The translations under genes and the position numbers were made by a program. This document shows, piece after piece, positions 3,451 through 24,647 of a stretch of 64,000 nt of DNA (positions are counted from its first letter, which is position 1; each line of letters opens with the position of its first letter). The DNA is from a virus. The DNA lies in the IMG/VR virus record IMGVR_UViG_3300024346_007254, positions 1 to 64,000 of that record; one strand, written 5' to 3'. The notes beneath the pieces are model-generated. The model was not told the origin of the DNA and did no database searches. It saw only the letters and a program-made list of their open reading frames with translations.

Positions 3451-4703
3451 TAATTGTTCTCAGTAGGTATAATCGGAGGAGCCTTTGCTACTTCGTCCAT
3501 ACTGTTTTCAAAAACACTACTATCAATATGATTATAAAGAACATCTTTATAGTTTTCTTTATATGCACTCTTTGGTGCGCAAAGGCCGCAACCACATGTA
3601 GCTTTTGGACAAATAACAGTTGGCATTGTCTTTGACTCAAGGCGTTGTTTTAGATCTGCAATGATTTTATAACCTTCGCTAATCTTTCCAATCGGGCCGC
3701 GTGTTTGATCAAATTTAGCTTGACACGTTTGGTGATGGAATACTTGATCTGTTTGTTGTTCTAAATGCAGGAAGAACCAGTTAACACTGCAATGCCAGCC
3801 TTTAAAGTTTCTAAAGTCAACAAAGGTACTTTTACGATCTTCTCCTTTAGCACTTAGGCACATCTCTCTACTGCCGCAGCACGGTCGTCCAATTGCATAA
3901 CCATCTTTCTTTGGTTTAAGTACAGGAACTGCTTCAGCAACCTTAGTTTCTTCGTTTGTAGGTTCGCCTACAGCACTTAGTTTGTGCGATATTTCTTTTT
4001 CATCATTAAGTTTAGCGTTCTTATACTTCCAGTAGTTTTTCATATAATCAAGTTGTTCTTCAGTATACTGGTGTGCAAAGTCACTAGCACTGCCTGCTTC
4101 TTCTCCAATTACACGCGGTACATACTTTACACCGTTTTCATGCAAAAAATCACATAGCTCTTTGCATTCGTCAAAGTATGCAGCATGAAACATAACATTA
4201 ACACTTACAGTGAAATTATTTGCAGGGCCTTCTTTATGAAACTGCATTATTCTATCTTTAACTTGCTGTTTAAGTTTTTGATTGCTTTCGCTATGATAAC
4301 TAACTGTGGCGTGAGTAAAATGCTTCATTACGTTATCGGCCATCTTCTTGCCCATTGCGCCGTTTGTAGTAAGTGAAAATGTTGCAGTCCACTTGTCACT
4401 ATACCGTTTTTTGTATTCATCTTTAAGATAAATTACAAATGGAACAAAATGAGGGTTAACTGTAGGCTCGCCTCCGGTAAAACTAATAGCGGTATATTTG
4501 TTTTTTCTATATTCCATATATGTATCAATATATTCAAACAAGAAATTTGTGTTAGCTTTTAATTCGTCAAGAGTTGCATGTGGACTAAAGTTATCATGAC
4601 GGTGAACAGGACAATAGCTACAATCATAGTTACATCGTCTTCCAAGATCCCACGACACTTGAAAAACATTTCCAGTAAGCAAGTCTACTGTATCAAAACT
4701 CAT
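3450..4703 (-). CDS. Radical SAM protein, type C, extended Cys-rich tail
   Basis: Starting at the ATG at 4703 the protein has 417 residues. That start gives a 4-nt ATGA overlap with the upstream PP-loop gene; the longer reading frame from 4742 would overlap it by 43 nt and adds an unconserved leader. The rSAM cluster motif is C24, C28, C31 (CNYDCSYC) and GGEP is present. The C-terminal third is rich in cysteine: a CC pair, 'GWHC', 'HHQTC' and a final CPxxxCGCGxC. It shares this tail, including HHQTC and the CGCG block, with the gene at 26785, so the two are close paralogues. Confidence 0.87.
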   Translation of the reverse strand: MSFDTVDLLTGNVFQVSWDLGRRCNYDCSYCPVHRHDNFSPHATLDELKANTNFLFEYIDTYMEYRKNKYTAISFTGGEPTVNPHFVPFVIYLKDEYKKRYSDKWTATFSLTTNGAMGKKMADNVMKHFTHATVSYHSESNQKLKQQVKDRIMQFHKEGPANNFTVSVNVMFHAAYFDECKELCDFLHENGVKYVPRVIGEEAGSASDFAHQYTEEQLDYMKNYWKYKNAKLNDEKEISHKLSAVGEPTNEETKVAEAVPVLKPKKDGYAIGRPCCGSREMCLSAKGEDRKSTFVDFRNFKGWHCSVNWFFLHLEQQTDQVFHHQTCQAKFDQTRGPIGKISEGYKIIADLKQRLESKTMPTVICPKATCGCGLCAPKSAYKENYKDVLYNHIDSSVFENSMDEVAKAPPIIPTENN

Positions 4704-5482
4704 AAAGAATAACCCTTCTTTGCTGCTTCTTCCATTGCCCATTTTCGTTCAGCACACCAAAAACAATTGTTACATACTTCGAGAGGAATACCGTGTTCGT
4801 ATGTGTCCCACGTTATTCCTTCAAATTGGCCTTCGCAACTTCTTGTAGTAGTTAACAAATCTTGCCACCCATTAACAAAATATTGTTCTATAACCCAATC
4901 TTTTTCAACATACTTAAACGGGTGTAGCTGACTCCATTCTTGTTGTTCTGCTGTGGCGTCCTCTATAGATACCTTTCTATCGTGCGGGGCTTTATTCAGC
5001 TTAACATTGGGGTTTTTAGTAACACAATTGTATATGCGAGAAAGATTGTGTCGTTTAAATGCATATTGATTATATGCACTTACCACCATCCTGTCGCCGG
5101 AAAACGCAGGATCTGCTGGGTTTTTATAAGGTCCGGACTCTTCAAATTGAGGTGGAATAAATCCTTCAATGCGTTCGACAATTACATCTGGAAACATTTT
5201 CTTTAATTTATTGTATACATCAATGCTGATGTATCCAGCCCAAGGCCTATCGGTGTAAACACGAACAAACGAAATTATCTTTATCTTTGTCTTGTATCCA
5301 TTTTCTTGAATGTACTTTGCTAACAGTGACGTAAATAACGCACTGTCGGCACCGCCACTTACATTTATTCCAACATAGTCCCAATTCGGATCGAAGCGTA
5401 CAGGCAAGCCATTTAGCTCATGTAACTTATCACTTATGCCAAGTGAATAGAATTTTTTTTGTATTTCATCAAGATTTGTCAT
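4700..5482 (-). CDS. QueC-like PP-loop ATPase
   Basis: A 260-residue N-type ATP pyrophosphatase. The PP-loop SGGADS is at residues 42-47, near the N-terminus. The C-terminus has TRSC (C216), then C237, C240 and C243 in CxxCFWC-x-ER, which matches the zinc site order of QueC (7-cyano-7-deazaguanine synthase). Such enzymes adenylate a carboxylate or amide and then add a nitrogen or sulfur nucleophile. It lies between an rSAM gene downstream (ATGA overlap) and a type-A rSAM gene upstream (14-nt overlap). Sequence between the motifs is not clearly QueC, and no other queuosine-pathway gene is visible, so the substrate is open. Confidence 0.82.
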   Translation of the reverse strand: MTNLDEIQKKFYSLGISDKLHELNGLPVRFDPNWDYVGINVSGGADSALFTSLLAKYIQENGYKTKIKIISFVRVYTDRPWAGYISIDVYNKLKKMFPDVIVERIEGFIPPQFEESGPYKNPADPAFSGDRMVVSAYNQYAFKRHNLSRIYNCVTKNPNVKLNKAPHDRKVSIEDATAEQQEWSQLHPFKYVEKDWVIEQYFVNGWQDLLTTTRSCEGQFEGITWDTYEHGIPLEVCNNCFWCAERKWAMEEAAKKGYSL

Positions 5483-6893
5483 CTAGAGATTCCTTATTAA
5501 ATATATCTTTCATTTCAGGAAACGTTTCAGCAAATGTTATCCCACGTTGTTGATCACATAATCCAAGAAACTCTTTCATTTCGGGTAGACGTTGACTCCA
5601 ATCTTCCGAATCCATAAAGCTAAGTATTCCATCAAGACGTTTGATTCCGTATTCTGCTTCTTGCCATGTTTCATATGTTATTTTTCCTTTGTGCCACTCC
5701 GGTATACCTAGTTCCCAGTTTTCTTCCCACCACGGATACCATGCTTCGTACTTATCTCTGCATTCTTTCTTAAACCAAGTAGGTAGAGCTTTTACATTTA
5801 GGTGTGCCGGCCAGTATACAAAGTGCTGACTTATGCCGCCAGCGCCAAATGGCCACATGTTAACCTTTTTAAAACCTTGCTCAAGTTTCCATTGTATAAA
5901 ATCTGGCAAGTAATATACATTAAGGGCTTGTACTGCGCAAGCAATAGTAACCTCGACATTATCACTTGTTTCGTTATCAAGTATGTGGAACACTTCTTCT
6001 TGACGTGTCCACTTACTAGGATAGCGAATATAATCATTCATCTCTTTAATGCTGTCTATCGAATAGTGAAAACGCACCAGCTTAAATTCTTTCCATAAAT
6101 CAAATAGGTCCTCTCTCCATTCAACTCCATTTGAGTTATAACGAAGTTCAAGGTCTTTTGCATAACCCATTTTAATTGCGTGTTCAAGAATTTCATAATG
6201 TTCCTCAATAATAAGACTTTCGCCGCCTGCAAAATAGATTTGTTGCATAGTCGGCATTTGCTCATAAAACTGTTTCCAGAATGTAGGATTTTGTTTGTGC
6301 CAGTTGTAACTACTGCCGTTAGTACTACCTTTGTCTTCCCACTGCATAATCTCTTTAAGTGATTCGTTTTTAACTGCTGGGAAGATAGCTTTGTAGTCTT
6401 TAATCCAGCCACTGCTATCATGCGGGCTGCACATTACACAAGCAAGCTGACACTTTGTTCCAAAACGCAAATCAATGTATGCTAGGTTTGGGGGCACTTC
6501 GCCATCTTCTTTGGTATCGGCTAGAATCTTTTCAAGGTCTACACGCTGGCTCCAATAGTGTGTTTCCCACTGTCGCTTACTACGATGGCCTGCTGCTTCC
6601 TCTTTGTAGCACTTTAAACAGCTAGGTGGTTTTTCTCCGTTAAGCATTTGCTTTCGGACGTTCTTCATGTAGTTGCTATTCCATGCTGTTTCAAAGTCAC
6701 TTACATTTAGATTGTTAGGCTTGCCATCATCTGTTTTAAGAATGCCTACTTGTCCGCCATGTTCTTTGTCATTTGTTGGGCCAACGCTACTTGCGTTAGC
6801 TGTACAACAAACTCTCATGCTGCCGTCTGGGCGTGTACTTAGGTGTACCCACGGCAGGAGGCAAAACGTCTCGCTCGGTAATTTATCGGTCAT
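5469..6893 (-). CDS. Radical SAM protein with N-terminal SPASM/Twitch-like domain (type A)
   Basis: At 474 residues this is the longest rSAM protein in the window. Its N-terminal cysteine domain has C11 (FCLLPW), C29/C30 (RVCC) and C92/C95 (CLKCY). The SAM-binding CxxxCxxC is C148, C152, C155 (CQLACVMC), followed by 'SPHDSS-x-W-x-KD'. GGES stands in for GGEP. The closest relative is the gene at 29517, which shares the SPHDSS block, the ETxxW linker and the overall length. It overlaps the PP-loop gene downstream by 14 nt and the type-B gene upstream by a TAATG junction. Confidence 0.88.
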   Translation of the reverse strand: MTDKLPSETFCLLPWVHLSTRPDGSMRVCCTANASSVGPTNDKEHGGQVGILKTDDGKPNNLNVSDFETAWNSNYMKNVRKQMLNGEKPPSCLKCYKEEAAGHRSKRQWETHYWSQRVDLEKILADTKEDGEVPPNLAYIDLRFGTKCQLACVMCSPHDSSGWIKDYKAIFPAVKNESLKEIMQWEDKGSTNGSSYNWHKQNPTFWKQFYEQMPTMQQIYFAGGESLIIEEHYEILEHAIKMGYAKDLELRYNSNGVEWREDLFDLWKEFKLVRFHYSIDSIKEMNDYIRYPSKWTRQEEVFHILDNETSDNVEVTIACAVQALNVYYLPDFIQWKLEQGFKKVNMWPFGAGGISQHFVYWPAHLNVKALPTWFKKECRDKYEAWYPWWEENWELGIPEWHKGKITYETWQEAEYGIKRLDGILSFMDSEDWSQRLPEMKEFLGLCDQQRGITFAETFPEMKDIFNKESLDDKS

Positions 6894-7972: not shown

Positions 7973-7991
7973 TGTGTACGTACTTTACTCT

Positions 7992-8007
7992 CATAAATAT
8001 ATTTATG
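7992..8007. promoter_or_regulatory. Palindromic bidirectional T4-type late promoter
   Basis: The 16-bp sequence CATAAATATATTTATG is a perfect palindrome, so CATAAATA (matching the T4-like late consensus NATAAATA) is read on both strands. On the plus strand it is followed by exactly 5 nt and the ATG of the rSAM gene at 8005; the last three bases of the palindrome are that ATG. On the minus strand it serves the seven-gene operon starting at 7972. One short element therefore probably fires both transcripts under phage late control. Confidence 0.62.
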
Positions 8008-9282
8008 AACTCCGATACACCAGAAAATAAAAACAATGCAATACTTAAGAAATATGGCAAATCCTTTTGTGCTGCGCCGTTTACTAGTTTCCACGAAGGT
8101 GAAAACGGTCTTATCAGTACGTGTTGCAAAACTAGAAATCCTCTTGGGTTTACTTCCCAAAATACTGTAGAAGAAATTCTAAACAGCGCAGAAGCACAGA
8201 AAATTCGTAAAGAATTTCTAGAAGGCAAACGCCCAGAGCAATGCAAGGCTTGCTGGAATCTAGAAGAAAGCGGAAAGATTGCTAGCAACAGACTCCATTC
8301 AAATGATATGGGTGCGGCAGGCATTGACGAAGCTGTCGCAAATACTAACGAAAATGGCTATATGAACAAACAGTTTCCAACATGGCTGGATATCTTATGG
8401 ACTAATAAATGCAATTTTGCGTGTATAGGATGCAAGCCTAGTTTAAGTAGTACAATTGCCAACAACTATATAAAAGAATTTTCTATATTGCACAATCACG
8501 ACTACGCAAAAGAACAATCACATGAATGGAAAAATTCAAATGATAGCAAAATAGATTACGTTCTTAAGCATAGTGATTCTATACACACTATTCACCTTAA
8601 CGGCGGCGAACCATTAATGGCCGAAGACTTGTATGAATTCTTAGAAGTAATGATTAGCAAGGGACTTCACAAGAAAATAAAAATATGGAGTCATACTAAC
8701 GGCAGTGTAAAGAGTTTTAAAGGTAGAGATTTAATACTTGATTATTTTTCTCATTGGGGCAAGAATTGTAAGATTACGTTAAGCAATGACGGACATAGTA
8801 AGTACGGTGAATATATTAGATATGGATACAATGATAAAAAATGGCTGAATACATATGAAAAAATTAAAGAAGCAAAAATAGAATTTAACGTTCAGACCTG
8901 TTTAAATATTTTTAACGTATTGTACTTAGATGAAATTAATGATTGGTATTTTTCTAATATTATCGATAATGAAAAGATTCCATATGGAACATTAACCCTC
9001 TGGACAAATCCAACTCTTAGTATTAGGCTAGCAAATCACATACCTGAACTAAGAGAACAGTCGTTAAACATGTTAACACAGCTTCAATCTAAGAAAAGTA
9101 TGCAGTGGAATAAATCACTAGTTTCAAGTCACCAATGGCTTGAAAATAATACACATGCGGACCAACATCATTTGAAGTCTTTTTATAACGGAGTAGTAGC
9201 GTTAGATGCAAAAAGAAATACAAACTTTTTAGAAACGTTTCCGTTGCTTACAGATTTATACAATTTAGGAAAATCTATTTAA
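8005..9282 (+). CDS. Radical SAM protein with N-terminal SPASM/Twitch-like domain (type A)
   Basis: The 425-residue frame starts at ATG 8005. A TTG at 7972 would add 11 residues but lies upstream of the late promoter and overlaps the neighbouring start. N-terminal cysteines are C22 (FCAAPF), C40/C41 (STCC) and C80/C83 (CKACW). The radical SAM motif is C136, C140, C143 (CNFACIGC), followed by NGGEP and 'YGEYIRYGY'. It stands alone on the plus strand and its 3' end overlaps that of a PP-loop ATPase gene by 8 nt, so an A-type rSAM and a PP-loop gene are again adjacent. Confidence 0.87.
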   Translation: MNSDTPENKNNAILKKYGKSFCAAPFTSFHEGENGLISTCCKTRNPLGFTSQNTVEEILNSAEAQKIRKEFLEGKRPEQCKACWNLEESGKIASNRLHSNDMGAAGIDEAVANTNENGYMNKQFPTWLDILWTNKCNFACIGCKPSLSSTIANNYIKEFSILHNHDYAKEQSHEWKNSNDSKIDYVLKHSDSIHTIHLNGGEPLMAEDLYEFLEVMISKGLHKKIKIWSHTNGSVKSFKGRDLILDYFSHWGKNCKITLSNDGHSKYGEYIRYGYNDKKWLNTYEKIKEAKIEFNVQTCLNIFNVLYLDEINDWYFSNIIDNEKIPYGTLTLWTNPTLSIRLANHIPELREQSLNMLTQLQSKKSMQWNKSLVSSHQWLENNTHADQHHLKSFYNGVVALDAKRNTNFLETFPLLTDLYNLGKSI

Positions 9283-10024
9283 TTCCAGCTTTTTGTTTTC
9301 CCCAATTGCGTTCTTCACACCAAAAACATTCTCCGCATTCTGGAACAAACTGTCCCTCAACATAATTTTCGTATGTTAGATCATCCCATTCCTGTTCACA
9401 GCTACGTGTTGTATTAAGTAAATCGAGTACATTATTATTAGCGTACTGCTTAATAATCCAATCTTTTTCAGTTAATCTAAATGGTGTTAAGAACCATCCA
9501 TTTTCATCTGCGCTTGCAAGAGTATCTATTTCGTATTTTGGAGTGTCCCTTGCAAGAACTCTGCGGGAGTGCTCTAGTCCTGTAGGATTTTTTGTAGTAG
9601 CATTATATATTGCATCATACTTATTTTGAAATTGAAGATAACGACTATAGCTTACCCCTATAACAACATCGCCTGCGCGGCCATTAATTGGTCCGGCAGC
9701 ACTGAGCTCAAGTTCCGGAGGCATATACATAGTATGTCTTTCTCCAATAATTTCTGGAAATCTATTCTTGAGCCAATTATAAACATTTTCTGCAATACTG
9801 TATTGCCAAGGACGTGTTTTCCACATACGGATATATGATAACACATCAACTTGACAATCGTAGTTGTTTTCTTCAATAATTTTACAAACTAAAAATGCTA
9901 ATATTGCACTGTCTGCGCCGCCACTTAAATTAATAACTACCTTTTTCCATTTAGGATTTACTGGTATTGGAAGACCGTCGACGTTGTGCGTTTCTAAATT
10001 AGTGCTATTATATAATTTTTCCAT
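9275..10024 (-). CDS. QueC-like PP-loop ATPase
   Basis: This 249-residue protein has SGGADS at residues 34-39 and the C-terminal metal-site pattern TRSC (C209), C230, C233, C236 (CxECFWC-x-ER). The spacing from the SC pair to the first cysteine of the CxxCxxC block is the same as in the two other PP-loop proteins of the window. 'RMWKTRPWQ' is shared with the copy at 23952. It is the last gene of the 16077-to-9275 minus operon, 9 bp after a type-B rSAM gene. Substrate unknown; an amide- or nitrile-forming step on an activated carboxylate is the family expectation. Confidence 0.82.
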   Translation of the reverse strand: MEKLYNSTNLETHNVDGLPIPVNPKWKKVVINLSGGADSAILAFLVCKIIEENNYDCQVDVLSYIRMWKTRPWQYSIAENVYNWLKNRFPEIIGERHTMYMPPELELSAAGPINGRAGDVVIGVSYSRYLQFQNKYDAIYNATTKNPTGLEHSRRVLARDTPKYEIDTLASADENGWFLTPFRLTEKDWIIKQYANNNVLDLLNTTRSCEQEWDDLTYENYVEGQFVPECGECFWCEERNWGKQKAGIK

Positions 10025-10033
10025 TTTATTTCC

Positions 10034-11113
10034 TTATTTAAACTGTGCAGCAAACGGATCAAACTCTGCTCCACATTTCATAGAACATACTTTTAGCTTA
10101 CCTGATGCACAAGTCGGCTTATTCCAACTTGCTTGTATAGAATCAAATATTCCAGTATCAAACACTGCACGTAGACCATGTATCTTAGCGTTAACTGCAT
10201 CTTTGCCGCCTGCTTCGTCAATAAAGTCCCATACTTGTTCTACTTTTGGATCTTTGTGCCACCACTTGTACATACGACCTGCTGTCCAGCAACACGGCAT
10301 TGCCAATCCTTCTGCTGTAATAAACAAGTTGCCTTCGTCTTTTACTTTACAATTAATAGGTGCAGCATCATAATATGCGTCCATACTACCGTACTTGTCA
10401 ATAATTACATCCTGTTTCTTAAGTGCAGTGTTTTGAAACTTTTCATCAGGCTTTTTAATTTCGTTGGTTTCGTTGCCTTTGCGATCAACTGCTTGGTGCG
10501 ATTCTTTCTTTTCACTGTTAGCAGTAACAAAACGTCCTGTCTTCTTTGCAACGAACCTCTCAAATCCCATTTCTTTACTTAATGCTTCGGCTTCTTCTAC
10601 TTGGTGCTGGTTATGTTCGAAGATGAGGAAGTCCCAACGGGCTCTGCCTCCTGCTGCAATAAAAGCTCGCATTGAGCGTTGCACGTTGTCCCAATTAACG
10701 TTTTGCCTATATATATGGTTGGTATCAGCAAGACCATCCACACTAAAAATGACAGCGCCGCAACGCCCAAAAACGGCTGCAAGTTCTCTCCACCATGTTT
10801 CATTCTTCGCTCCTGCGTTAGTGTTCATACTCAACCACATGTCTTTATTATGACTGCGAAAGTATTCAAAAATTTCTAATGTATCTCTAGCAACAATTGG
10901 ATCACCTAAGTTGCCGCACATATACAATGTCTTAAGCTGCTTGATAAAGCTGGGCTCAAACATTACTTTAATGTCGTCAAGTGTAAGTTCGCTCAAGTCG
11001 ATGTGCGGATTAACTGCTCCGCCGTTTTGATTACGGTCACACATCGGACAAGCTGCTTGACAATTCTGTGTGTTTTCTAAATGAATTACTCTAATATCTT
11101 CGTACTTGTACAT
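10034..11113 (-). CDS. Radical SAM/SPASM-like protein, type B
   Basis: A 359-residue protein beginning 'KYEDIRVIHLENTQNCQ', with C18, C22, C25 in CQAACPMC. The GGE position is CGNLGDP. 'FSVDGLADTNHIYRQN' and 'FEHNQHQVEEA' are conserved with the gene at 27830, its nearest relative. The C-terminal cysteines INCK, MPCCW and CSMKC form the SPASM-like set. It directly abuts the SGNH-like gene upstream without a gap. Function beyond radical SAM chemistry is not predictable from the sequence. Confidence 0.87.
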   Translation of the reverse strand: MYKYEDIRVIHLENTQNCQAACPMCDRNQNGGAVNPHIDLSELTLDDIKVMFEPSFIKQLKTLYMCGNLGDPIVARDTLEIFEYFRSHNKDMWLSMNTNAGAKNETWWRELAAVFGRCGAVIFSVDGLADTNHIYRQNVNWDNVQRSMRAFIAAGGRARWDFLIFEHNQHQVEEAEALSKEMGFERFVAKKTGRFVTANSEKKESHQAVDRKGNETNEIKKPDEKFQNTALKKQDVIIDKYGSMDAYYDAAPINCKVKDEGNLFITAEGLAMPCCWTAGRMYKWWHKDPKVEQVWDFIDEAGGKDAVNAKIHGLRAVFDTGIFDSIQASWNKPTCASGKLKVCSMKCGAEFDPFAAQFK

Positions 11114-11935
11114 TTATTTTAATGCCTTTAAAATTTCTGGAGCAACATAATTAGTCATAAGTTCGGTATTTCCTTTTGGTCCCATGTGGTTGCCGATGTC
11201 AGTCCAGTGTTTATCCAAAAGTCCTGTTTCTTGTACTACAAAATCAACAATGTTAATACTAGGGGCCGTGTTCTTGTCCCAAATTTGCAGCCAAGGATAA
11301 ACAAGATGGGGAATATTTTTATTTTCAATAAGCGCATGAGTATAGTATAATTGAGCCTGTATAGACTCTAGATGATGATACCCCCCTACTTCGCCTACAG
11401 CGTAGACGTTCATCTTATTAAGTAAATCAAATACCCATTTTACTTTTTTAGATATCCTATTCCCTGGCTGACTGGCTATTCCAGGATTTACCCATATTCC
11501 TCCCAAAAGTGGATCAACCCCAAATTTAGGAAGATCACTGTACGGTAACAAATAATGATTGTTGCGAGACTTATTATCACCTGTAGGATGTCTCTGCAGA
11601 TTTCTTGGATCAATTGCATTGAAGAATTTTTTAGAATTAAAAAGTAGACCTAAGCGGTGAGGAGTTGTTACTTGCCAAACAATAAAATCAGGAGTATAAT
11701 ATTCTAAATATTTTTGGATAATCATTGCTTGTGTTGCTACTGAACTACATAAAACTGATACATTGTATAATTCAAAGTCATCTAGGCCGCCTTCTTCTAA
11801 TAGATCATAAAGAATATCCGTCGGAGTTAGGTCGTATGGATTTAAATCTTCCTTTTGAAATTTCTTTAGCTTCTCTACTTTAGAACCGTATAAGCCACGT
11901 GTAAAGCTACATCCAACTACTAATATTTTTTTCAT
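11114..11935 (-). CDS. SGNH/GDSL hydrolase-like protein
   Basis: The 273-residue protein starts MKKILVVGCSFTRG, where GCS replaces the GDS of block I and keeps the serine. A late 'DKHWTDIGNHMGPKGN' segment could supply the catalytic Asp/His. Enzymes of this fold remove or transfer acyl groups, often acetyl groups of glycans, but several phage members are uncharacterised. It has no signal peptide, so it probably acts in the cytoplasm or on virion parts. Its ATG overlaps the stop of the small upstream gene as ATGA. Four further GCS-type proteins lie at 34083, 35857, 37995 and 39683. Confidence 0.6.
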   Translation of the reverse strand: MKKILVVGCSFTRGLYGSKVEKLKKFQKEDLNPYDLTPTDILYDLLEEGGLDDFELYNVSVLCSSVATQAMIIQKYLEYYTPDFIVWQVTTPHRLGLLFNSKKFFNAIDPRNLQRHPTGDNKSRNNHYLLPYSDLPKFGVDPLLGGIWVNPGIASQPGNRISKKVKWVFDLLNKMNVYAVGEVGGYHHLESIQAQLYYTHALIENKNIPHLVYPWLQIWDKNTAPSINIVDFVVQETGLLDKHWTDIGNHMGPKGNTELMTNYVAPEILKALK

Positions 11936-12156
11936 TCATCTAATACCAATTTTACTTGTTTGCCCGGACCTACTTTGCTCGGTAAATCGCCGTAACGATC
12001 TATATACCATTCAATAACAGCTTTGTACCAGTTTTGGCTATTATGATGTGCCTTTTGATTAAACTGCCATATGTTATTGTTTGTTGCTTCCATTGTACTT
12101 AGTGCTCTTGCACTTTCCGTTTGCAACTCTCTTAAACTTAAATCACTTATATCCAA
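11932..12156 (-). CDS. Small protein of unknown function (74 aa)
   Basis: Not recognised. The 74-residue product is mostly predicted-helical, with aromatic residues in the middle (NWYKAVIEWYIDRYG) and a basic C-terminal end (GPGKQVKLV). It contains no cysteine. It overlaps the upstream methyltransferase-like gene by 14 nt and the SGNH-like gene by ATGA, so it is translated as part of the operon. Being small and inside an rSAM-rich operon it could be a substrate or carrier, but it shows no leader/core layout, so this stays a guess. Confidence 0.55.
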   Translation of the reverse strand: MDISDLSLRELQTESARALSTMEATNNNIWQFNQKAHHNSQNWYKAVIEWYIDRYGDLPSKVGPGKQVKLVLDE

Positions 12157-13108
12157 TTTTCATAAACCTTGTATACTTTTCTAATTCAAGTTTTCCTTCG
12201 TAAAGAACTGTTGTCATTGGTGCAGATTTGCTGAACTCTTCGATTGACGAAGAACAGTTAACATGCTCTTCTATTTCAAAATAGTTATTACTTTGAAGTA
12301 TTACTAGTTTGCCATTGGGTATCTTTGCATACCAATCTGTAAAATTTTCAATATGTTCACAGCTTGTATTAATAATTGTATCCGGAACATCTAGCACATT
12401 GCATTCTGAGCCGTCTGCTCTCCTAACTGTGGATACGTGTTCTTCAAAATTAATCGATTGTATATCCTGTGTTGAAGCTTGGAATTTCCAATCATCGATC
12501 ACCCAAGGCTTATTGAACACTTTAGCAATGCCTTCGCATTTAAAATCAATATCAAAACTACGTATCTTGTCAACCTTTATATTTGACTCAAACAACATAA
12601 CTGCTAGAGTAGCATACCATCCTGCACATAAAAATACTGTTCCGAGATCGATTTTAGTTCTCTGAAGTTCTTCAACAAGCCATTGTTTACTTTGTAGCTG
12701 ACCTCTGCTAAAGCAATCTTCGTCTATTTCTATTTCATTAACAAAGAAATTTTTAAATGCAGCAATAAATTGCGTTTCGACATATCGGTCAAGTATAGGC
12801 CAAAGCTTCCATGTATTATCTTCGAGTACAAGTTTTCGTAAGTCGTCGTCATCGATAAGTCTAAATATACTATGCAAATTTTGTTCTGTAACAGCTTTTC
12901 TTAATTCTTCAGTATCATACTTATCAACAATACGAAACAAGCTATGTAAGTTTTTTTCTAGTACTGCTTTACGTAAGTCGTCATTGGCATTGGTCAACCT
13001 AAAAAGACTAGAAATATCTTGGTCGATGTATGTTCGTCTTAAATCTGCCAATTTTATATTAGTATAGTACAGTAATTCAAATCTATCTAATAGTTCAAAA
13101 GTTTTCAT
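12143..13108 (-). CDS. Methyltransferase-like protein with N-terminal LRK repeats
   Basis: About 321 residues from the ATG at 13108, chosen because it forms an ATGA overlap with the upstream stop; an ATG at 13123 is also possible. The N-terminal third has four repeats of 21-24 residues of the form LRKAVxEKNLHSLFRIxD. The rest aligns with the 201-residue protein at 30909: shared blocks are a 'CAGWYATLAVML' strand-loop resembling a SAM-binding motif I, 'INTSCEHI', 'LVILQSNNY' and 'EHVxC'. It is probably a class I SAM-dependent methyltransferase fold, but the glycine-rich loop is poor and activity is uncertain. Confidence 0.55.
   Translation of the reverse strand: MKTFELLDRFELLYYTNIKLADLRRTYIDQDISSLFRLTNANDDLRKAVLEKNLHSLFRIVDKYDTEELRKAVTEQNLHSIFRLIDDDDLRKLVLEDNTWKLWPILDRYVETQFIAAFKNFFVNEIEIDEDCFSRGQLQSKQWLVEELQRTKIDLGTVFLCAGWYATLAVMLFESNIKVDKIRSFDIDFKCEGIAKVFNKPWVIDDWKFQASTQDIQSINFEEHVSTVRRADGSECNVLDVPDTIINTSCEHIENFTDWYAKIPNGKLVILQSNNYFEIEEHVNCSSSIEEFSKSAPMTTVLYEGKLELEKYTRFMKIGYK
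12773..13042 (-). repeat. Four tandem protein repeats (LRK...SLFRL unit)
   Basis: Four consecutive units of 22, 24, 21 and about 23 codons begin LRRTY, LRKAV, LRKAV and LRKLV and end in an SLFRL/SIFRL/WPIL block with acidic residues. The last unit is the most diverged. The units are similar in protein but not identical in DNA, so the expansion is old. The paralogous protein at 30909 lacks them. Confidence 0.7.
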
Positions 13109-13818
13109 AGAGTTAGTTTCCATTTCTCTTTATTATAACACGCATAGCACACACCGTCAATCAATAATTTGTCATTTGTTATTTCGTATCTTACTGGCGG
13201 ATCTGCTTTTGTTGGGTTAGCATAGAACGGACAATGATCGGTTAGCTCTTTAAAAAATGTATTTGCGGGCGCTGATCTTCTGTAAACGCCCGGCGAATCC
13301 GAAAGTGCTGTACTATCAACTGCAAAGTTCATGCCAACAACTTCGGCAACTTCGGTATCTTGTGGAGAAATACATTCAACTGGAAATTTCTTTTTAAACT
13401 TTCCTACAAAGTCTGTAATAACTACAGGCACTGGTTTATTGTACAACTCAGCTACCATTAATCGAGTGCCGCCAGGATGTATTGCAATGTTCATCTTTCC
13501 AAACCAACTTAAACTTACCGGGGAAGTAATTCCAACTCCTGTTTTAATATCGTCGATGATTTTTGATAGAGCATTTAGCTTTCCGATGTGACTGTCATTT
13601 AGCCATGCTTCGTTGCTAAGAACAACATTACTATCTGCAAATAACGAATTAATTAGCCTTGATAGATACATATCGCTGTTATCGTCTGTAAAAGTTTTAC
13701 TAATTTCTGCTAAAGTTAAAAATGATATATAAGTTTTTGTGCCATGAAAATTATCAAACTCATTAGTTAACTCTACAAAATGCTGATAATCTTTTACAGT
13801 ATGAACTTGTAAATCCAT
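13105..13818 (-). CDS. Protein of unknown function (237 aa)
   Basis: Not recognised. The central part contains 'SLSWFGKMNIAIHPGGTRLM', a strand-rich stretch with a possible HPGGTR ligand motif, and the C-terminus has a CYACYNK pair of cysteines. No signal peptide or membrane segment. It overlaps the upstream rSAM gene by 1 nt and the downstream methyltransferase-like gene by 4 or 19 nt, so it belongs to the 16077-to-9275 operon and may act with the rSAM at 13818. Confidence 0.5.
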   Translation of the reverse strand: MDLQVHTVKDYQHFVELTNEFDNFHGTKTYISFLTLAEISKTFTDDNSDMYLSRLINSLFADSNVVLSNEAWLNDSHIGKLNALSKIIDDIKTGVGITSPVSLSWFGKMNIAIHPGGTRLMVAELYNKPVPVVITDFVGKFKKKFPVECISPQDTEVAEVVGMNFAVDSTALSDSPGVYRRSAPANTFFKELTDHCPFYANPTKADPPVRYEITNDKLLIDGVCYACYNKEKWKLTL

Positions 13819-16113: not shown

Positions 16114-16120
16114 CTTATTG

Positions 16121-16128
16121 AATAAATA
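16121..16128 (+). promoter_or_regulatory. T4-type late promoter
   Basis: AATAAATA, a full match to NATAAATA, is followed by exactly 5 nt and the ATG of the fibre-like gene at 16134. There is no room for a Shine-Dalgarno leader. The start site expected for a late promoter falls at the A of the ATG. Confidence 0.6.
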
Positions 16129-16133
16129 TTGTA

Positions 16134-17279
16134 ATGATATATGATGGTGGAACTTACAGAATAAATATTGAAGGTGAAGATAGCACCGTAATTCTCGATT
16201 CGTCTACAAACACAATCAAAGCGAATTTAGTAGACATTAATAATCAAACAGCGTTTAATCCAATTAATAGAGAATTTAACGGCGACTTTGTTGGAAATTT
16301 TCGCGGTAACATTGTAAACAGCCAAGGCGACAAACTTTACAACTGGAAAACGCAACAATTAAAAGCTAACATTATAAGCAATGACGGAATCATTTCGTAT
16401 AACTCCGACGCTAACGAATTTTACGGCAAGTTTGTTGGCACACATCTTGGAGATATTGTTAACCAACAAAACGAAATAGTTTACAATGCAGATCAAAGAT
16501 CTTTGTCCGCAAGTCTAAGAAGCATTAATGGCGATCTAGCTTATGACGCAAGTACAAATACTATCATGGCAAATTTTAGTGGAAAGATTATCAATAGTAT
16601 TAATGTTAGTGTACGGAATTCAACAAGTACAAAAACGTTAGTTGATGTAATAAGCGAGACTGTACATGCCCGTGTAATTGGAAATGTTATTTCTAACGAC
16701 GGAGAAACTATAGTTAATGCTACTAGAAACTCCGTTAAGACCAAAACCGTAAAAACTGCAAATCTACGTCCATGGGAATATGACACCGGACTTACTATTG
16801 GACAAAACAACAGCGACCTAACCTTAATATCTGGAAAAAATGGAATTGACATTGTAAAACAAGATCATAGCGATTCTCTCTCACAACGCAACCGAATTAA
16901 TTTTATAACCGATCTTAACGCTGCGTTGAATGAGCGGCTATTAGCAAGTATCGAAGGTACCGGAATTCACAACGGAGAATTATACCAAGGCGGGGTGTTA
17001 GCTTTTGGCATAGACAAAGACTTTAAGGCAAAGGGCGAATTTAGCAGTATTCCTTCTTGGTTTGGAGTGTTTGTTAATGACGGTAGTGCTCCAACTTATG
17101 GAATCGAGAACGCACTAACTCAAAGTTTAATATTTGATCATACTGGCATTTTAAATATTCCAGTATTGAAACTTAGAGGTAAACAGCCAAAAAACCCCGA
17201 AGAGGGTACTATTATCTTTAATAAAAAGCTTAAAAAGTTTCAAGGATATACTGGCGACGAGTGGGTTAATTTACATTAA
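16134..17279 (+). CDS. Fibre-like virion protein
   Basis: This 381-residue protein is made largely of short beta-type repeats of the pattern 'G-I-x-N-x2-G-x3-YN ... F-x-G-x-F-x-G', for example GDFVGNFRGNIVN and GKFVGTHLGDIVN, over roughly residues 40-200. The C-terminus 'GTIIFNKKLKKFQGY' followed by DEWVNL is typical of the end of phage fibre and short-tail-fibre proteins. It sits within the biosynthetic genes, far from the main fibre block, under its own late promoter. A 2OG-oxygenase-like gene follows with a TAATG overlap, so the pair is probably co-expressed. Confidence 0.65.
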   Translation: MIYDGGTYRINIEGEDSTVILDSSTNTIKANLVDINNQTAFNPINREFNGDFVGNFRGNIVNSQGDKLYNWKTQQLKANIISNDGIISYNSDANEFYGKFVGTHLGDIVNQQNEIVYNADQRSLSASLRSINGDLAYDASTNTIMANFSGKIINSINVSVRNSTSTKTLVDVISETVHARVIGNVISNDGETIVNATRNSVKTKTVKTANLRPWEYDTGLTIGQNNSDLTLISGKNGIDIVKQDHSDSLSQRNRINFITDLNAALNERLLASIEGTGIHNGELYQGGVLAFGIDKDFKAKGEFSSIPSWFGVFVNDGSAPTYGIENALTQSLIFDHTGILNIPVLKLRGKQPKNPEEGTIIFNKKLKKFQGYTGDEWVNLH

Positions 17280-17764
17280 TGAAATATATAGGAAATTATC
17301 AATTTGATGGGTTGCGAGAATTAGCAATTATGCACGTCGGATCTAGACGGCCACGCGATATACCCCACAAAGAAAGTTGGGACGGATATACAGCGGCATC
17401 AAAAGCTGGGCATTATGATTTAAATGCAGTGTATTGGGAAATTGTAGAACAAGGACAAATTGATACTGATTTAAAATTTCCGTGGACAAATTCAAACACG
17501 CACTGGTGGATTTCAAAAATGACTCCAGGACAGTTTATGCCGATGCACGTAGATCCAATAGCTGAAAAACGCAAATGCAATAGATACTGGATCCCGTTAC
17601 AAGATTACGAACCAGGACATATCTTTATTTACGATACTGAGTTAATTAAAGATTATGTTGCAGGAGACGTTTATCAGTTCAACGACAGCGACGGTTATCA
17701 CGGCGCTGCAAACATCGGGCACAGCGTTAGATTAGTATTGCAAGTAAACGAATATTTTGACTAA
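17279..17764 (+). CDS. 2-oxoglutarate/Fe(II) oxygenase-like protein
   Basis: A 161-residue jelly-roll protein with the metal-binding HxD in 'MPMHVDP', a middle strand 'YEPGHIFIYD', and a distal histidine in 'YHGAANIGHSVRLVLQV' where the following Arg could bind 2-oxoglutarate. The layout is that of small aspartyl/prolyl hydroxylase-type enzymes. It overlaps the fibre-like gene by TAATG, which raises the possibility that it hydroxylates that protein. The 3' end overlaps the convergent SDR gene by 4 nt, with the two stop codons sharing bases. Confidence 0.6.
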   Translation: MKYIGNYQFDGLRELAIMHVGSRRPRDIPHKESWDGYTAASKAGHYDLNAVYWEIVEQGQIDTDLKFPWTNSNTHWWISKMTPGQFMPMHVDPIAEKRKCNRYWIPLQDYEPGHIFIYDTELIKDYVAGDVYQFNDSDGYHGAANIGHSVRLVLQVNEYFD

Positions 17765-19582: not shown

Positions 19583-19587
19583 GTATC

Positions 19588-19604
19588 TATTTACTTGATA
19601 ACTA
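19588..19604. promoter_or_regulatory. Divergent pair of diverged late-promoter boxes
   Basis: Minus strand AGTAAATA (19595-19588) lies 5 nt before the ATG at 19582; plus strand GATAACTA (19597-19604) lies 5 nt before the ATG at 19610. Each has one mismatch to NATAAATA. Alone each is weak; the identical 5-nt spacing to two opposite start codons is what supports them. Confidence 0.42.
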
Positions 19605-19609
19605 AGTGT

Positions 19610-20909: not shown

Positions 20910-21568
20910 ATGATAAGCTAGTACTCGGAATGCCTCACTTATTAAGTAATTTTGATCTTAATTTAAATCATATTGCTAAGATATTTGGCGACAATCACTG
21001 GCATTATATGTCAGACCGTCCGAGCGACAGTTACATTAACAATAATAGAATTTATCAAAGCTTTTTAAGAATCGATTTTTCTATAAAAGATAATTTCAAC
21101 GAGGATGACGAATTTGATGTAAATATAGTCGGAGACTATGTTGATGACTATATCTTTCGTACTAATCACACTTTCGGCAATAATTCTATCTCTATGTACA
21201 CTATTGGTATCTATATGGAGAATGAAAAAATACAAAAGGCAAGACGCCTGGGTAAGAAGGATCAGGCGTTTTGGTTAAGTCATAAGGCGAAAAAAAAGAA
21301 CACACGTACTGTGTTAGAACCTGTAGACTTTCCAACTTACTATAATATCGATTTCAACTGTGCAAAAATACTCTATTGCGCAAACTATCTAAAATTTATA
21401 TACCAATATTGTGATGTAAAAGATATTGATCCAATTATTACTCGAATTGATTATTTTGGAAATATCTCCCCAAAAGCTGTATTGACTGTCGGTAAAAGCA
21501 ACAACGATTTTGTTATACTCGAAAATGACAGACTTATAGCAAGTGTAGAATACCTACCAAAGGTTTAA
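20906..21568 (+). CDS. Hot-dog-fold protein resembling the LnmK/Pnap_2097 group
   Basis: 220 residues. The start 'LGMPHLLSNFDLNLNHIAK' and 'GDNHWHYMS' recall the opening of LnmK/Pnap_2097-type double hot-dog proteins, which are acyltransferase/decarboxylase relatives found in natural-product clusters. The match is from memory of the family's GMPHL and GDxHW blocks. The rest is strand-rich and consistent with that fold. Next to a GNAT-like gene, a role in making or moving an acyl group is plausible. Its 3' end overlaps the convergent gene by 15 nt. Confidence 0.42.
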   Translation: MNDKLVLGMPHLLSNFDLNLNHIAKIFGDNHWHYMSDRPSDSYINNNRIYQSFLRIDFSIKDNFNEDDEFDVNIVGDYVDDYIFRTNHTFGNNSISMYTIGIYMENEKIQKARRLGKKDQAFWLSHKAKKKNTRTVLEPVDFPTYYNIDFNCAKILYCANYLKFIYQYCDVKDIDPIITRIDYFGNISPKAVLTVGKSNNDFVILENDRLIASVEYLPKV

Positions 21569-22087
21569 AAGATACTTTGGTTGTAGTCCACAATTTGATC
21601 CGGCATGCCAAAGTTTGCGACTGCTCCACATATAAGTAGAACCTTGCGGTCTATTATAAAATGCTTCATCGCCTGCAATAAAGATATGCCCAACTGCGGG
21701 CTGTCCTATGTGGCAATGATAGCGTACACAATCATCTAAGACGTCATCCTTGTCATTAACGTCCCAGTGTACTGGAGCATAATTTCCAACGTGTATGCAG
21801 CTAATCCAAGCTGTGTGATAATTTTCAATCTCAAAAAAATCAACAAACTTCTTGATTACCAATTCGTCAAACTGTTGACCCGGAAAATACATATCCCATC
21901 CAAGTGTTCCGCCGTCTGCAATAGGTTTGTAATTTCCTTTTTCCCACAATTTAGTAACTTCGTTAACGCCATCTAGCTTGTCGCCTTTTTTGTGACGTGG
22001 TCCGACATAAGCAGGCTCAGTGTTATCTAAATCTGCAATAACTGCATCCCAATTTAAATTTGAACAATTTCCAATAAAATTAATCAT
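21554..22087 (-). CDS. 2-oxoglutarate/Fe(II) oxygenase-like protein
   Basis: 177 residues with 'PVHWDVND' (HxD metal motif), a strand 'AVGHIFIAGDEAFYN' and 'LWHAGSNCG' carrying the distal histidine. The adjacent gene at 22080 has the same blocks (PWHWDVND, FGHVFLVEDKCYYN, YHAKSNSG), so the two are tandem duplicates. It overlaps that gene by 8 nt. The C-terminal Arg expected to bind 2-oxoglutarate is replaced by Lys (QPKYLLNLW), which may alter cofactor binding. Confidence 0.55.
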   Translation of the reverse strand: MINFIGNCSNLNWDAVIADLDNTEPAYVGPRHKKGDKLDGVNEVTKLWEKGNYKPIADGGTLGWDMYFPGQQFDELVIKKFVDFFEIENYHTAWISCIHVGNYAPVHWDVNDKDDVLDDCVRYHCHIGQPAVGHIFIAGDEAFYNRPQGSTYMWSSRKLWHAGSNCGLQPKYLLNLW

Positions 22088-22598
22088 TTGGTTTTCCTAA
22101 AAAATGCATCATGTAAAATGGATCAGATCCGCTGTTTGATTTAGCATGATAGCTATTCCAATTGTCCCATTTAATTATTGTTCCTTGTTCTTGATTGTAA
22201 TAACATTTGTCCTCAACGAGGAACACATGTCCAAATCTAAACTTTCGTCGGTCAAGAAAACAACTCCACCTTACTAGCTCACCATCGGCTAGCCATTCGT
22301 CGGTGCGATCATTAACGTCCCAATGCCACGGCGCAGTTTTTCCAGGCATAAGTTTACTAACCCATGCATACCGAGGGGTAGCGTTTACTTCTCTTGCAAA
22401 CCAATCTACAAAAAGTTTGTCTGGATAATAATTAATCCACTCAACATTTGTTAAATCATAACCTGCTGTTTTCCAGGTATCTAGTATTTCCGTATACGGA
22501 TCAGTTGGACCTGTTGCTCGTTTAAGAATGCCTGTAGCATTATTTGCAATTCCGTTAGTGCAACTTAGCATAATACTATTACAAGCAATTTTATTCAT
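22080..22598 (-). CDS. 2-oxoglutarate/Fe(II) oxygenase-like protein
   Basis: 172 residues from the ATG at 22598, which overlaps the upstream stop by 8 nt; the longer frame from 22622 adds 8 residues inside the neighbour. It keeps HWD (PWHWDVND) and 'YHAKSNSG', but the position after it reads DPFYMMHF, with no Arg or Lys for 2-oxoglutarate. It is therefore either a diverged oxygenase or a non-catalytic partner of its neighbour at 21554. Confidence 0.52.
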   Translation of the reverse strand: MNKIACNSIMLSCTNGIANNATGILKRATGPTDPYTEILDTWKTAGYDLTNVEWINYYPDKLFVDWFAREVNATPRYAWVSKLMPGKTAPWHWDVNDRTDEWLADGELVRWSCFLDRRKFRFGHVFLVEDKCYYNQEQGTIIKWDNWNSYHAKSNSGSDPFYMMHFLGKPND

Positions 22599-23268
22599 TA
22601 AACAGTTCCTTATATACTCCAAGCAAGGAGTTGTTGCCCCAATTAGTAATTCTTAATGTATGTTTGAATAATACTTCGAGATCTAGCATATCGTCTTTGA
22701 CAAATCCAGGAATTTTTAATTTGTCTTTGTTATTCATGTTTAGGATAACGTCTAGATTCCTTTTTTCAGTAACAGGATTAGCTATTTCTGTTGTTCCGTA
22801 CCAATCAAATGTTCTCATATTGTCGTTGTTGTCAACATAGTGACAGTGAGGATACATTGTTATTTTGTAATAACCAAATTTGTGCTGATCTAAAATAATA
22901 GACTTTATCTTATCGCCCCACGAGTTTGGGTGATGATTGCAGCCATAGATATGTTGATTACAACTTAGTTCGTACCATTTAATATATACTCGTTTTTTCT
23001 TATAGTCAATCTCTATTATTTCAGGAGCATAGGGTTTGTCTTTAAAAATATTTAAATATTTTAGTTCTCTTTCAAAGAAATAATCAGCTGCTTCTTTTGT
23101 ATAATCAAGGCGCACATGATCTCGACGTTGATATTTGTTTCGCCAATCAAAGTTTAAGCAAAACGTTTTGCCATCTCGACTGATTAACGGTTCGTAAGAC
23201 TGTTGTGCCATACCTAATGTTCCATCAGGAGTATACTTAAGGTAAGGGTGCCAGTCATTAATATTCAT
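22591..23268 (-). CDS. Unknown protein, possibly kinase-fold
   Basis: 225 residues. 'RELKYLNIFKDKPYAPEIIE' looks like the helix-strand pair after the ATP-binding lysine of small kinases, and 'QHKFGYYKITMYPHCHYVD' followed by 'NMRTFDWYG' resembles a catalytic loop and a DFG-like turn (FDW). It parallels the gene at 19610. Catalytic residues are not convincing, so it may be a pseudokinase. It overlaps both operon neighbours by 8-11 nt. Confidence 0.38.
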   Translation of the reverse strand: MNINDWHPYLKYTPDGTLGMAQQSYEPLISRDGKTFCLNFDWRNKYQRRDHVRLDYTKEAADYFFERELKYLNIFKDKPYAPEIIEIDYKKKRVYIKWYELSCNQHIYGCNHHPNSWGDKIKSIILDQHKFGYYKITMYPHCHYVDNNDNMRTFDWYGTTEIANPVTEKRNLDVILNMNNKDKLKIPGFVKDDMLDLEVLFKHTLRITNWGNNSLLGVYKELFNE

Positions 23269-23911: not shown

Positions 23912-23916
23912 GTTTA

Positions 23917-23924
23917 TATTTATA
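23917..23924 (-). promoter_or_regulatory. T4-type late promoter
   Basis: On the minus strand TATAAATA is a perfect late box, followed by exactly 5 nt and the ATG at 23911. No Shine-Dalgarno site fits between them. Confidence 0.6.
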
Positions 23925-23938
23925 TGCTCAGTTTTTAG

Positions 23939-23946
23939 GTTAAATA
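23939..23946 (+). promoter_or_regulatory. Probable diverged late promoter
   Basis: GTTAAATA (one mismatch to NATAAATA) is followed by 5 nt and the ATG at 23952, mirroring the stronger box on the opposite strand 15 bp away. It would drive the PP-loop/rSAM plus operon. Confidence 0.42.
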
Positions 23947-23951
23947 AAAGT

Positions 23952-24647
23952 ATGATAGTTGACAAATTAGACATCCCACTTGACAAAAGGTGGAGGCGCA
24001 TCGGTATTAGTTTAAGTGGCGGCGCAGATAGTGCATTGCTTGCATACCTAATCTTAAAGAACACTAACGCAAGCATATTCTTTACAACACAAATACGTAT
24101 GTGGAAAACTCGGCCTTGGCAGCGTTATGTTGCAAAGGATGTAGTAAGCTGGTTTAGAGAACACTTTAATAATACCATTGAACACGTCGAAAACTTTATT
24201 CCGCCGGAATTAGAAGAGCCAACAAGCCCTCTTATTACAGACGAGTACGGCAAGCAAAAACCTGGGAATAGAATTATACTAAGGGCGCACAATGAATTTG
24301 TAGCGCATACTTACAAACTCGACGCTTGGTATGCAGGAGTTAATTTAAATCCAACAGAGAAGTTTGATGGTGCGCCGCCCGACAGAGACCAAAGCTTCAT
24401 TCCACTAAATCTTTCGCATATGGGGGTACAAGTACTGCACCCATTTGTTAACACCAGGAAAGACTGGATTATACGCCAGTACATAAATCTCGGAATTGGC
24501 GACTTACTTGAAATTACACGAAGTTGCGAGGGTGAATTTAAAAACTTAGACTACACCAATTACACTCCGTACCAACAAGTTCCAATTTGCAAAACATGCT
24601 TCTGGTGTAACGAAAGAGAATGGGGTGTGCATAATGCATTCAAGTAA
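23952..24647 (+). CDS. QueC-like PP-loop ATPase
   Basis: 231 residues from the ATG at 23952. SGGADS lies at residues 22-27, the shortest leader of the three PP-loop proteins here. The C-terminal site is TRSC (C192) with C213, C216 and C219 in CKTCFWCNER. 'RMWKTRPWQ' and 'PPELE' are shared with the copy at 9275. It heads a four-gene plus operon and overlaps a type-A rSAM gene by 14 nt, repeating the pairing seen at 4700/5469. Confidence 0.82.
   Translation: MIVDKLDIPLDKRWRRIGISLSGGADSALLAYLILKNTNASIFFTTQIRMWKTRPWQRYVAKDVVSWFREHFNNTIEHVENFIPPELEEPTSPLITDEYGKQKPGNRIILRAHNEFVAHTYKLDAWYAGVNLNPTEKFDGAPPDRDQSFIPLNLSHMGVQVLHPFVNTRKDWIIRQYINLGIGDLLEITRSCEGEFKNLDYTNYTPYQQVPICKTCFWCNEREWGVHNAFK

Follow-up and report, generated by a model that had tools for sequence, protein, structure and literature searches.

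The first 64,000 bases of the 74,882-base virus record IMGVR_UViG_3300024346_007254 (hereafter the window) encode three QueC-like PP-loop ATPases, which we term Q1, Q2, and Q3, each touching a gene for an N-Twitch radical S-adenosylmethionine (SAM) protein. These proteins appear to form a previously undescribed branch of QueC-type PP-loop ATPases. Our best reading, held with moderate confidence, is that Q is a ligase that activates a carboxylate with ATP and forms part of a modular radical-SAM cassette. The Q genes, the Q3 motifs, and the radical-SAM genes beside them are located as follows:

4700..5482, minus strand: Q1, QueC-like PP-loop ATPase, 260 amino acids (aa), from its open reading frame (ORF), motifs, and homology to Q2 and Q3.
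9275..10024, minus strand: Q2, QueC-like PP-loop ATPase, 249 aa, from its ORF, motifs, a Pfam QueC match of 15.4 bits, below the cut-off, and a PHROG QueC-like match (E 4e-7).
23952..24647, plus strand: Q3, QueC-like PP-loop ATPase, 231 aa from an inner ATG taken as its start (the mechanical ORF begins at 23817 with GTG), from its ORF, a Pfam QueC match of 19.6 bits (cut-off 22), and a structure model.
24015..24032, plus strand: SGGADS ATP-pyrophosphate loop of Q3, residues 22–27, invariant in 46 of 46 aligned sequences.
24516..24617, plus strand: TRSC...CxxCFWCxER of Q3, residues 189–222, putative zinc site, with Cys192, Cys213, Cys216, Cys219, and Glu193 invariant in 46 of 46.
5469..6893, minus strand: N-Twitch radical-SAM gene adjoining Q1 (NF033640, 424 bits).
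8005..9282, plus strand: N-Twitch radical-SAM gene convergent with Q2 (NF033640, 263 bits).
24634..25899, plus strand: N-Twitch radical-SAM gene 3' of Q3, modelled here (NF033640, 326 bits; CX3CX2C at C124/128/131).
25892..26797, plus strand: third gene of the common order Q, N-Twitch, radical-SAM (PF04055, 41.9 bits; neighborhoods of relatives).
26737..27861, plus strand: another radical-SAM gene in the run after Q3 (PF04055, 53.6 bits).
3450..4742, minus strand: radical-SAM gene overlapping the 3' end of Q1 (PF04055, 47.7 bits).
10034..11113, minus strand: radical-SAM gene directly upstream of Q2 (PF04055, 29.3 bits, slightly under the 29.5 cut-off).

The original prediction, made from the sequence of the window, was that SGGADS, TRSC, and CxxCFWCxER recur in all three proteins, and they do, at residues 42, 34, and 22 (SGGADS), 213, 206, and 189 (TRSC), and 237, 230, and 213 (CxxCFWCxER) of Q1, Q2, and Q3, respectively. 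The equal spacing also claimed for the three, 22 residues from the TRSC Ser to the Cys that opens the CxxC block, was confirmed; among relatives it is the commonest form rather than a constant (31 of 47 non-redundant Q, the others ranging from 11 to 30, mostly 29). Pairwise BLASTP comparison gave 34–39% identity with E values of 1e-47 to 4e-59; judged by their sequences, Q1–Q3 are homologues whose likeness did not arise by chance. None of the three exceeds the cut-off of the Pfam QueC profile (PF06508), to which Q1 gives no match at all. The PHROG ‘QueC-like’ family was matched weakly by Q proteins (E 2e-7 to 0.009), and in PADLOC QueC was matched weakly by Q2 (E 0.005) and Q3 (E 0.012) but not by Q1. 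PADLOC pVip matches of the radical-SAM genes in the window were not accepted as membership.

Relatives of Q were found in 341 stretches of IMG/VR using a pattern search and tblastn, and in at least 534 with a better profile. The three sets used for analysis were the best-scoring 80 of 341, of at least 534, and of at least 569. The first Q set comprised 90 Q frames from 81 sources, reduced at 75% identity to 47 non-redundant Q in 40 loci, 46 of which were aligned (alignment A2; L031:1943-2548 was too divergent and was excluded). In the second Q set, 29 of 77 were kept at 80% identity, a limit applied against the first set as well. The N-Twitch set retained 61 of 80 at 90% identity; four were cut upstream, leaving 57 testable loci, and 52 of the 61 had sufficient upstream DNA (at least 2 kb) for gene order to be read. 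The same two alignments found no relative of Q in 84,980 prokaryote genomes (one per species), and tblastn searches of 50,697 phage records with Q2 (E≤0.001) and Q3 (E≤0.1) were likewise without a match. As far as these scans reach, the family was seen in uncultivated viruses only, and it is apparently virus-only. The part of the record beyond the window encodes a large structural protein matched in 62 phage records; the 15 matches listed are large myophages (33–36% identity), and several are annotated as baseplate wedge. Between Q3 and a 74% identical homologue (L103), differences at codon positions 1, 2, and 3 number 44, 30, and 129, a pattern indicating selection. Full-text search of the open-licence PMC literature found no radical-SAM-linked viral QueC branch.

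The association of Q with N-Twitch genes is most evident in these relatives. An N-Twitch gene lies next downstream of Q on the same strand for 33 of the 47 non-redundant Q; 31 of these pairs overlap, one is separated by 1 nt, and one by 777 nt, the overlap counts being upper limits since the longest ORF starts were used. When gene order was shuffled within loci 2,000 times, such pairs numbered 6.3 on average and 14 at most. Counting any N-Twitch neighbor or fusion, the association extends to 39 of 47 Q, and counting any radical-SAM neighbor or fusion, to 41 of 47. In the second set, an N-Twitch gene follows 26 of the 29 new non-redundant Q. Fusions of N-Twitch and Q occur in two contigs that are 72% identical over nearly their full length (L007, 831 aa; L009, 836 aa), and a different radical-SAM protein is fused to Q in L043 (627 aa). 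In a tree of 109 N-Twitch genes, those following Q cluster together, requiring 16 label changes compared with a minimum of 23 in 500 shuffles, and in one clade (support 0.76) Q is found at most two genes upstream in 24 of 27 members. The Q-centered sets and the tree were chosen for having Q. A reciprocal test started from the N-Twitch clade: of its 57 non-redundant loci, 25 have Q directly upstream and 6 have it at another place in the flank, and in 26 the searched flank (3 kb or less) shows no Q. The pairing of Q with N-Twitch genes is thus real and strong, but it is not obligate.

Within the window, each Q touches an N-Twitch gene as had been claimed, including one convergent pair, and all three partners exceed the curated cut-off of NCBIfam N_Twi_rSAM (NF033640; 170 bits). 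The overlaps are 14 nt for Q1, which follows its partner on the same strand, 8 nt for the convergent Q2, and 14 nt for Q3, which precedes its partner on the same strand. Because radical-SAM genes abound in the window (PF04055, Radical_SAM, is matched by 18 of its proteins at E≤0.01, 15 of them over the Pfam cut-off), three adjacencies in one genome are suggestive and only moderately surprising; the strong evidence comes from the relatives. Q3 alone shows the order dominant in the family, Q then N-Twitch on the same strand, and the N-Twitch neighbors of Q1 and Q2 are placed elsewhere in the N-Twitch tree. In the N-Twitch protein after Q3, the cluster motif CX3CX2C (C124, C128, and C131) and the N-terminal Cys 8, 26, 65, and 68 are invariant in 41 of 41 sequences.

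The gene order around the N-Twitch gene is variable. In the 52 loci, the N-Twitch gene is preceded by a conserved gene termed U (13 loci), by Q (13), by U and then Q (9), or by U and then a GDSL-type gene with a weak Pfam match (6); no such gene is present in 5, and the remaining six loci all have Q. These varied orders around a core N-Twitch gene suggest that Q is one interchangeable, optional step of a modular cassette. U, which lies upstream of Q or N-Twitch, encodes about 284 aa with 73 invariant columns in 20 sequences (for example L023 7148-8005, with other members in alignment A7; one unrelated sequence in alignment A4, L003, was excluded from A7). Searches of Pfam, NCBIfam, and PDB sequences gave no useful match for U, and the suspicion that it is a pyridoxal phosphate enzyme, raised by the look of its SLSKGLGLGWNRIG stretch, gained nothing useful from them.

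A search of PDB sequences with the Q profile gave matches at the PP-loop level only (best E 0.11; Cap9 E 2.8), so structure comparison was needed. Comparison with the structure of QueC had been proposed as a check on the original prediction, and the AlphaFold2 model of Q3 (46 family members in the alignment; predicted local distance difference test score, pLDDT, 96.1) proved QueC-like. In VIA-align, it scored highest with QueC (3bl5, Z 15.2, 179 residues aligned at 3.6 Å; 2pg3, Z 14.3), followed by Cap9 (Z 13.9, 169 residues, 3.0 Å) and QatC (Z 13.0, 169 residues, 3.2 Å), and MesJ/TilS and LarE gave Z 13.8 and 13.2. Foldseek ranked Cap9 best among solved structures (E 4e-6), and in a viral structure library many phage QueC models were matched, the best with a template modelling score of 0.64 over the query. 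The QueC, Cap9, and QatC alignments cover 169–181 residues, from model residues 13–15 to 227–231, and so take in the ATP loop at one end and the C-terminal Cys region at the other. The model thus gives Q3 a QueC-type PP-loop fold, with a Rossmann-like PP-ATPase domain and a C-terminal putative zinc unit.

Invariant in 46 of 46 Q are SGGADS, TRSCE, three further Cys, K170, P164, N133, and E221. Cys192, Cys213, Cys216, and Cys219 stand in the order of the QueC zinc motif and match its zinc site, so that zinc binding is predicted; the loop within the site has 20 residues in Q1–Q3, compared with 8 in QueC (C(x)8CxxCxxC), and mostly 20 or 27–28 in relatives. The cysteine block is no novelty of the active site: it corresponds to the zinc site standard in the QueC family, with a longer loop, as in QatC. 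The pocket of Q is different. As reported in parts of PMC13329287, QueC carries the motifs YxQxHxxE, VPxRN, and YPDC and an essential Tyr after the first zinc Cys; according to passages of PMC13279940, the Tyr and Asp of a YPDC-type motif hold 7-deazaguanine in the Cap9 structure, and QueC has counterparts. Conserved Tyr-x-Asp, Arg-Asn, or YxQxHxxE columns are absent from the 46-sequence alignment, whatever the register. In their place Q conserves RxWxxRPW, NP, and MxxRD; a weak profile alignment to Escherichia coli QueC puts RxWxxRPW on YxQxHxxE, [SP]G[DN] on VPxRN, and MxxRD near YPDC, and aligns the invariant Lys170 with QueC K165. Directly behind the first zinc Cys, Q has a Glu like that of Cap9 (CE) in place of Tyr189 of QueC (CY).

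Q was compared with known QueC-type systems. It shares with canonical QueC the fold, the SGGxDS loop, the order of the four Cys, the aligned Lys, and a radical-SAM gene nearby, as queC often has queE. It differs in lacking the three QueC motifs and the Tyr after the first zinc Cys, in its sub-cut-off Pfam scores, in its zinc-motif spacing, and in having an N-Twitch radical-SAM protein rather than QueE as its partner. Like Cap9 of type IV CBASS, Q is a single compact QueC-like domain with Glu after the first zinc Cys, and the CE and three further Cys of the Cap9 motif CE(x)6CxxCxxC are present and invariant, although the spacing differs. Cap9, however, keeps a YxDC base-binding motif and sits with a CD-NTase (parts of PMC13329287), whereas in Q this motif is missing and the neighbors are radical-SAM genes; no CD-NTase appeared among the Pfam matches (E≤0.01) of 106 Q neighbors, and no search aimed at CD-NTases was made. 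QatC of the qatABCD defence system shares the fold, a long zinc-motif spacing (C(x)19CGxC; parts of PMC13329287), and replacement of the residues binding 7-carboxy-7-deazaguanine (CDG; passages of PMC13279940). QatC also has N- and C-terminal extensions and a QatB partner (same passages of PMC13279940), in contrast to Q3, which lacks extensions and aligns over residues 13–229 to QatC 147–370. Cap9 acts on the N-terminus of a protein, and the same is suspected of QatC (passages of PMC13279940). The WbpG-type N-sugar amidotransferases (PF06508 cluster 5) are QueC-superfamily members in surface polysaccharide making and thus a precedent for the setting suspected here, but their Cys pattern, CxxC(x)6CxC, sets them apart from Q by description (parts of PMC13329287). 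In the pelagimyophage host recognition cluster, radical-SAM cassettes likewise occupy a large variable region with tail fibers and glycosyltransferases; the passages of PMC7029224 that describe them mention no QueC-like partner and propose no radical-SAM function.

On the favored reading, Q would follow QueC and Cap9 in using ATP to activate a carboxylate as an acyl-adenylate and in coupling it to an amine or to ammonia. The carboxylate would be other than CDG. The radical-SAM partner may supply it or act on it at a later stage, and the product may decorate a phage or host surface molecule. Q would be one tailoring step among several, as its optional place in the cassette suggests, and a surface target is suggested by the variable region in which the cassettes lie, with tail-fiber-like, sugar-nucleotide, GDSL-type, sulfotransferase, and 2-oxoglutarate (2OG) hydroxylase genes. 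The original prediction proposed a radical-SAM-then-ATPase chemistry on another carboxylate. Its coupling component stands, on the pairs in both sets and the fusions; carboxylate activation in series with a radical step is what the fold, motifs, and linkage would suggest. A carboxylate other than CDG fits, because the residues that hold CDG in Cap9 (passages of PMC13279940) are lost from Q. A more specific scenario, which we consider possible but doubtful, is that the N-Twitch enzyme makes a carboxylate unknown in cells by radical rearrangement, and that Q, whether fused to this enzyme or encoded next to it, adenylates the carboxylate and links it to a macromolecule of phage or host (a tail fiber, surface glycan, or protein N-terminus) for use in host recognition or rival-phage exclusion, in parallel to QueE–QueC and to protein deazaguanylation.

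Several observations weigh against the ligase reading. The Z scores of Cap9, MesJ/TilS, LarE, and QatC lie within one unit of each other, so that the QueC reaction cannot be read from the fold by itself. The likeness of Q to QueC falls under the Pfam cut-off, and E. coli QueC is aligned only weakly by profile (local alignment, probability 9%, P 0.0035); residues outside the ATP loop and the cysteines can therefore be equated only with uncertainty. Peptides, lipids, and nucleotides are also among the molecules that radical-SAM proteins can modify. Nearly half of the N-Twitch genes in the reciprocal test (26 of 57) show no Q in the flank searched (3 kb or less), and an ammonia-supplying amidotransferase is absent among the Pfam matches of the 106 Q neighbors. 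The link to surface recognition is loose, since it is the radical-SAM run of the window, ending at 44143, that comes within 6 kb of tail-fiber-like genes, and the Q genes are 25–45 kb from them.

An alternative that we judge unlikely is peptide or protein modification, in which the radical-SAM enzymes would modify a peptide or virion protein and Q would form an amide or other bond. The model of the N-Twitch partner of Q3 (pLDDT 92.5) resembles maturases of ribosomally synthesized and post-translationally modified peptides (RiPPs), with SkfB at Z 12.3 and also the best PDB sequence match (E 3e-5), the N-terminal activity of Cap9 and suspected activity of QatC (passages of PMC13279940) point the same way, and genes resembling 2OG Asp/Asn hydroxylases often lie close to Q (13 of 106 scanned neighbors). 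However, BlsE (Z 12.5) and DesII (11.4), which act on sugar compounds, score about like SkfB. The other radical-SAM cores matched are anSME (11.4), viperin (11.3), and MoaA (11.2). The matching structures span peptide, sugar, and nucleotide enzymes and therefore give no choice of substrate. Most Q have no conserved small precursor gene beside them. The sole widely conserved small protein (73–96 aa, 10 of 40 loci) adjoins a different gene and was not adopted as a RiPP precursor; its window copy is a 74-aa protein at 11932-12156 that overlaps the 3' end of a conserved gene at 12143-13123. The idea of an N-terminal Gly acceptor found little to build on, as only 4 of 106 Q neighbors start with the Met-Gly signature of Cap9/QatC acceptors, the starts being first-start-codon guesses.

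It appears quite unlikely that Q acts on CDG, whether replacing a missing QueC or conjugating CDG to protein as Cap9 does. FolE and a true QueE occur together in 10 of 31 Q-carrying records, and FolE in 6 of 7 further ones and in 11 of 13 over 110 kb; no QueC over the Pfam cut-off occurs in these records (0 of 31 and 0 of 7), with sub-threshold QueC matches in 4 of 31 (E 2e-5 to 9e-4). The Foldseek match to Cap9 and the shared CE motif also fit action on CDG, but Q has no conserved counterpart of the Tyr and Asp to which the base is bound in Cap9 and, by analogy, in QueC (passages of PMC13279940). FolE was also traced through a marker gene, in 11 records over 59 kb, a comparison that is soft because the records are fragments and the marker stems from a Q-carrying phage. 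Two of the 11 (L184 and L185) are the records of known Q and FolE carriers (L029 and L037), and the shorter marker records L208 and L253 lie in the contigs of two further Q carriers (L030 and L069). Among the other nine long records, FolE is present in 7 and Q clearly in 1, with one weak, partial Q match in addition; adding L184 and L185 brings the counts to 9 of 11 for FolE and 3 of 11 for a clear Q, and the marker is identical in these three Q-carrying records. Five marker records have FolE and no Q match. The record of the window, itself a fragment, has no FolE, QueD, or tRNA-guanine transglycosylase (TGT) match. Synechococcus phage BUCT-ZZ01 is annotated with QueE, QueD, and FolE, and Q2 and Q3 have no match in that phage collection. 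Since FolE occurs with and without Q, Q is probably not the missing QueC of the phage lineage, and with FolE not tied to Q and the base-binding residues gone, CDG is less likely as its substrate.

The searches for QueC, QueD, FolE, TGT, and QueE, together with the marker comparison, leave a queuosine or DNA-deazaguanine role as a rival only. QueD was matched in 4 and TGT in none of the 31 Q-carrying records; TGT and QueC protein probes from phage Moby had no match in 15 records, a search that is uninformative as it lacked a positive control. The suggestion that modified phage DNA bases are involved thus found no specific support. In Q-carrying T4-like phages with no QueC or TGT match, FolE and QueE lie near a phosphoribosyltransferase-like gene (L091 3677-4219 and 6885-7949; L093 5027-7918; L094 5731-8686; L097 5748-10161). 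This gene matches Pfam PF00156 (E 1e-9 for the L093 copy, the other copies being judged by eye), and in BUCT-ZZ01 QueE, a guanine phosphoribosyltransferase, QueD, and FolE stand together. Such a set may load deazaguanine into nucleotides instead of acting by base exchange.

Very unlikely is mere linkage, with Q and N-Twitch as exchangeable cargo of the variable region serving unrelated pathways: N-Twitch genes often lack Q, and U and GDSL-type genes too are combined in various ways within the cassette, but the co-directional, mostly overlapping pairs (33 of 47 and 26 of 29), the clustering of Q-following genes in the N-Twitch tree (16 changes against the shuffle minimum of 23), and the fusion of two radical-SAM types to Q argue otherwise.

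The wider setting of the window includes the following features:

49655-54990 and 55625-63859: tail-fiber and virion families.
31511: sugar-nucleotide epimerase gene, among or beside radical-SAM genes.
33450: DegT-type aminotransferase gene, among or beside radical-SAM genes.
45650: weakly GT8-like gene, among or beside radical-SAM genes.

In relatives, 121 neighbor genes of Q were collected and 106 scanned (5 window genes and 10 others were omitted); besides the 2OG Asp/Asn hydroxylases, one or two matches each were found for sulfotransferase, GDP-mannose dehydratase, UDP-glucose dehydrogenase, B12-binding, and GDSL families. The setting is similar to that of the host recognition cluster in aquatic T4-like myophages, for which PMC7029224 notes radical-SAM cassettes together with glycosyltransferases. 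Within the radical-SAM region, the gene at 16134-17279 encodes a 381-aa protein with short repeats and, by eye, a tail-fiber look, with no Pfam or PHROG match. A small family found in 23 loci (window 17279-17764, 21554-22087, and 22080-22622) appears by eye to be of 2OG-Fe oxygenase type and has no Pfam match. A single in-frame ORF of about 4,570 codons spans the window edge, from window 55625-64000 to L081 5337, and its window part matches virion structural and head-closure PHROGs. Related phages encode other SGGxDS PP-loop-like proteins (L092 1188-2042, 20.2 bits to Pfam QueC, below the cut-off; L100 2311-3231 and 3237-4394, the latter with no Pfam match). A phage with many Fe-S enzymes encodes a 100-aa protein (L086 7718-8020) that we take, from its motif, to resemble an A-type Fe-S carrier.

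The QueC scaffold was recently shown to modify protein in bacterial immunity (Cap9), and QatC is suspected of doing so. On the side of the virus, this scaffold would find one more use in a branch that has conserved pocket motifs of its own and works with a radical-SAM partner. For the unexplained radical-SAM genes of aquatic T4-like phages, Q is a concrete partner that can be tested, and the natural Q fusions offer a single polypeptide for substrate finding. Collectively, the coupling of Q to radical-SAM genes points to a chemical modification that may be made during the infection of bacteria by uncultivated viruses.

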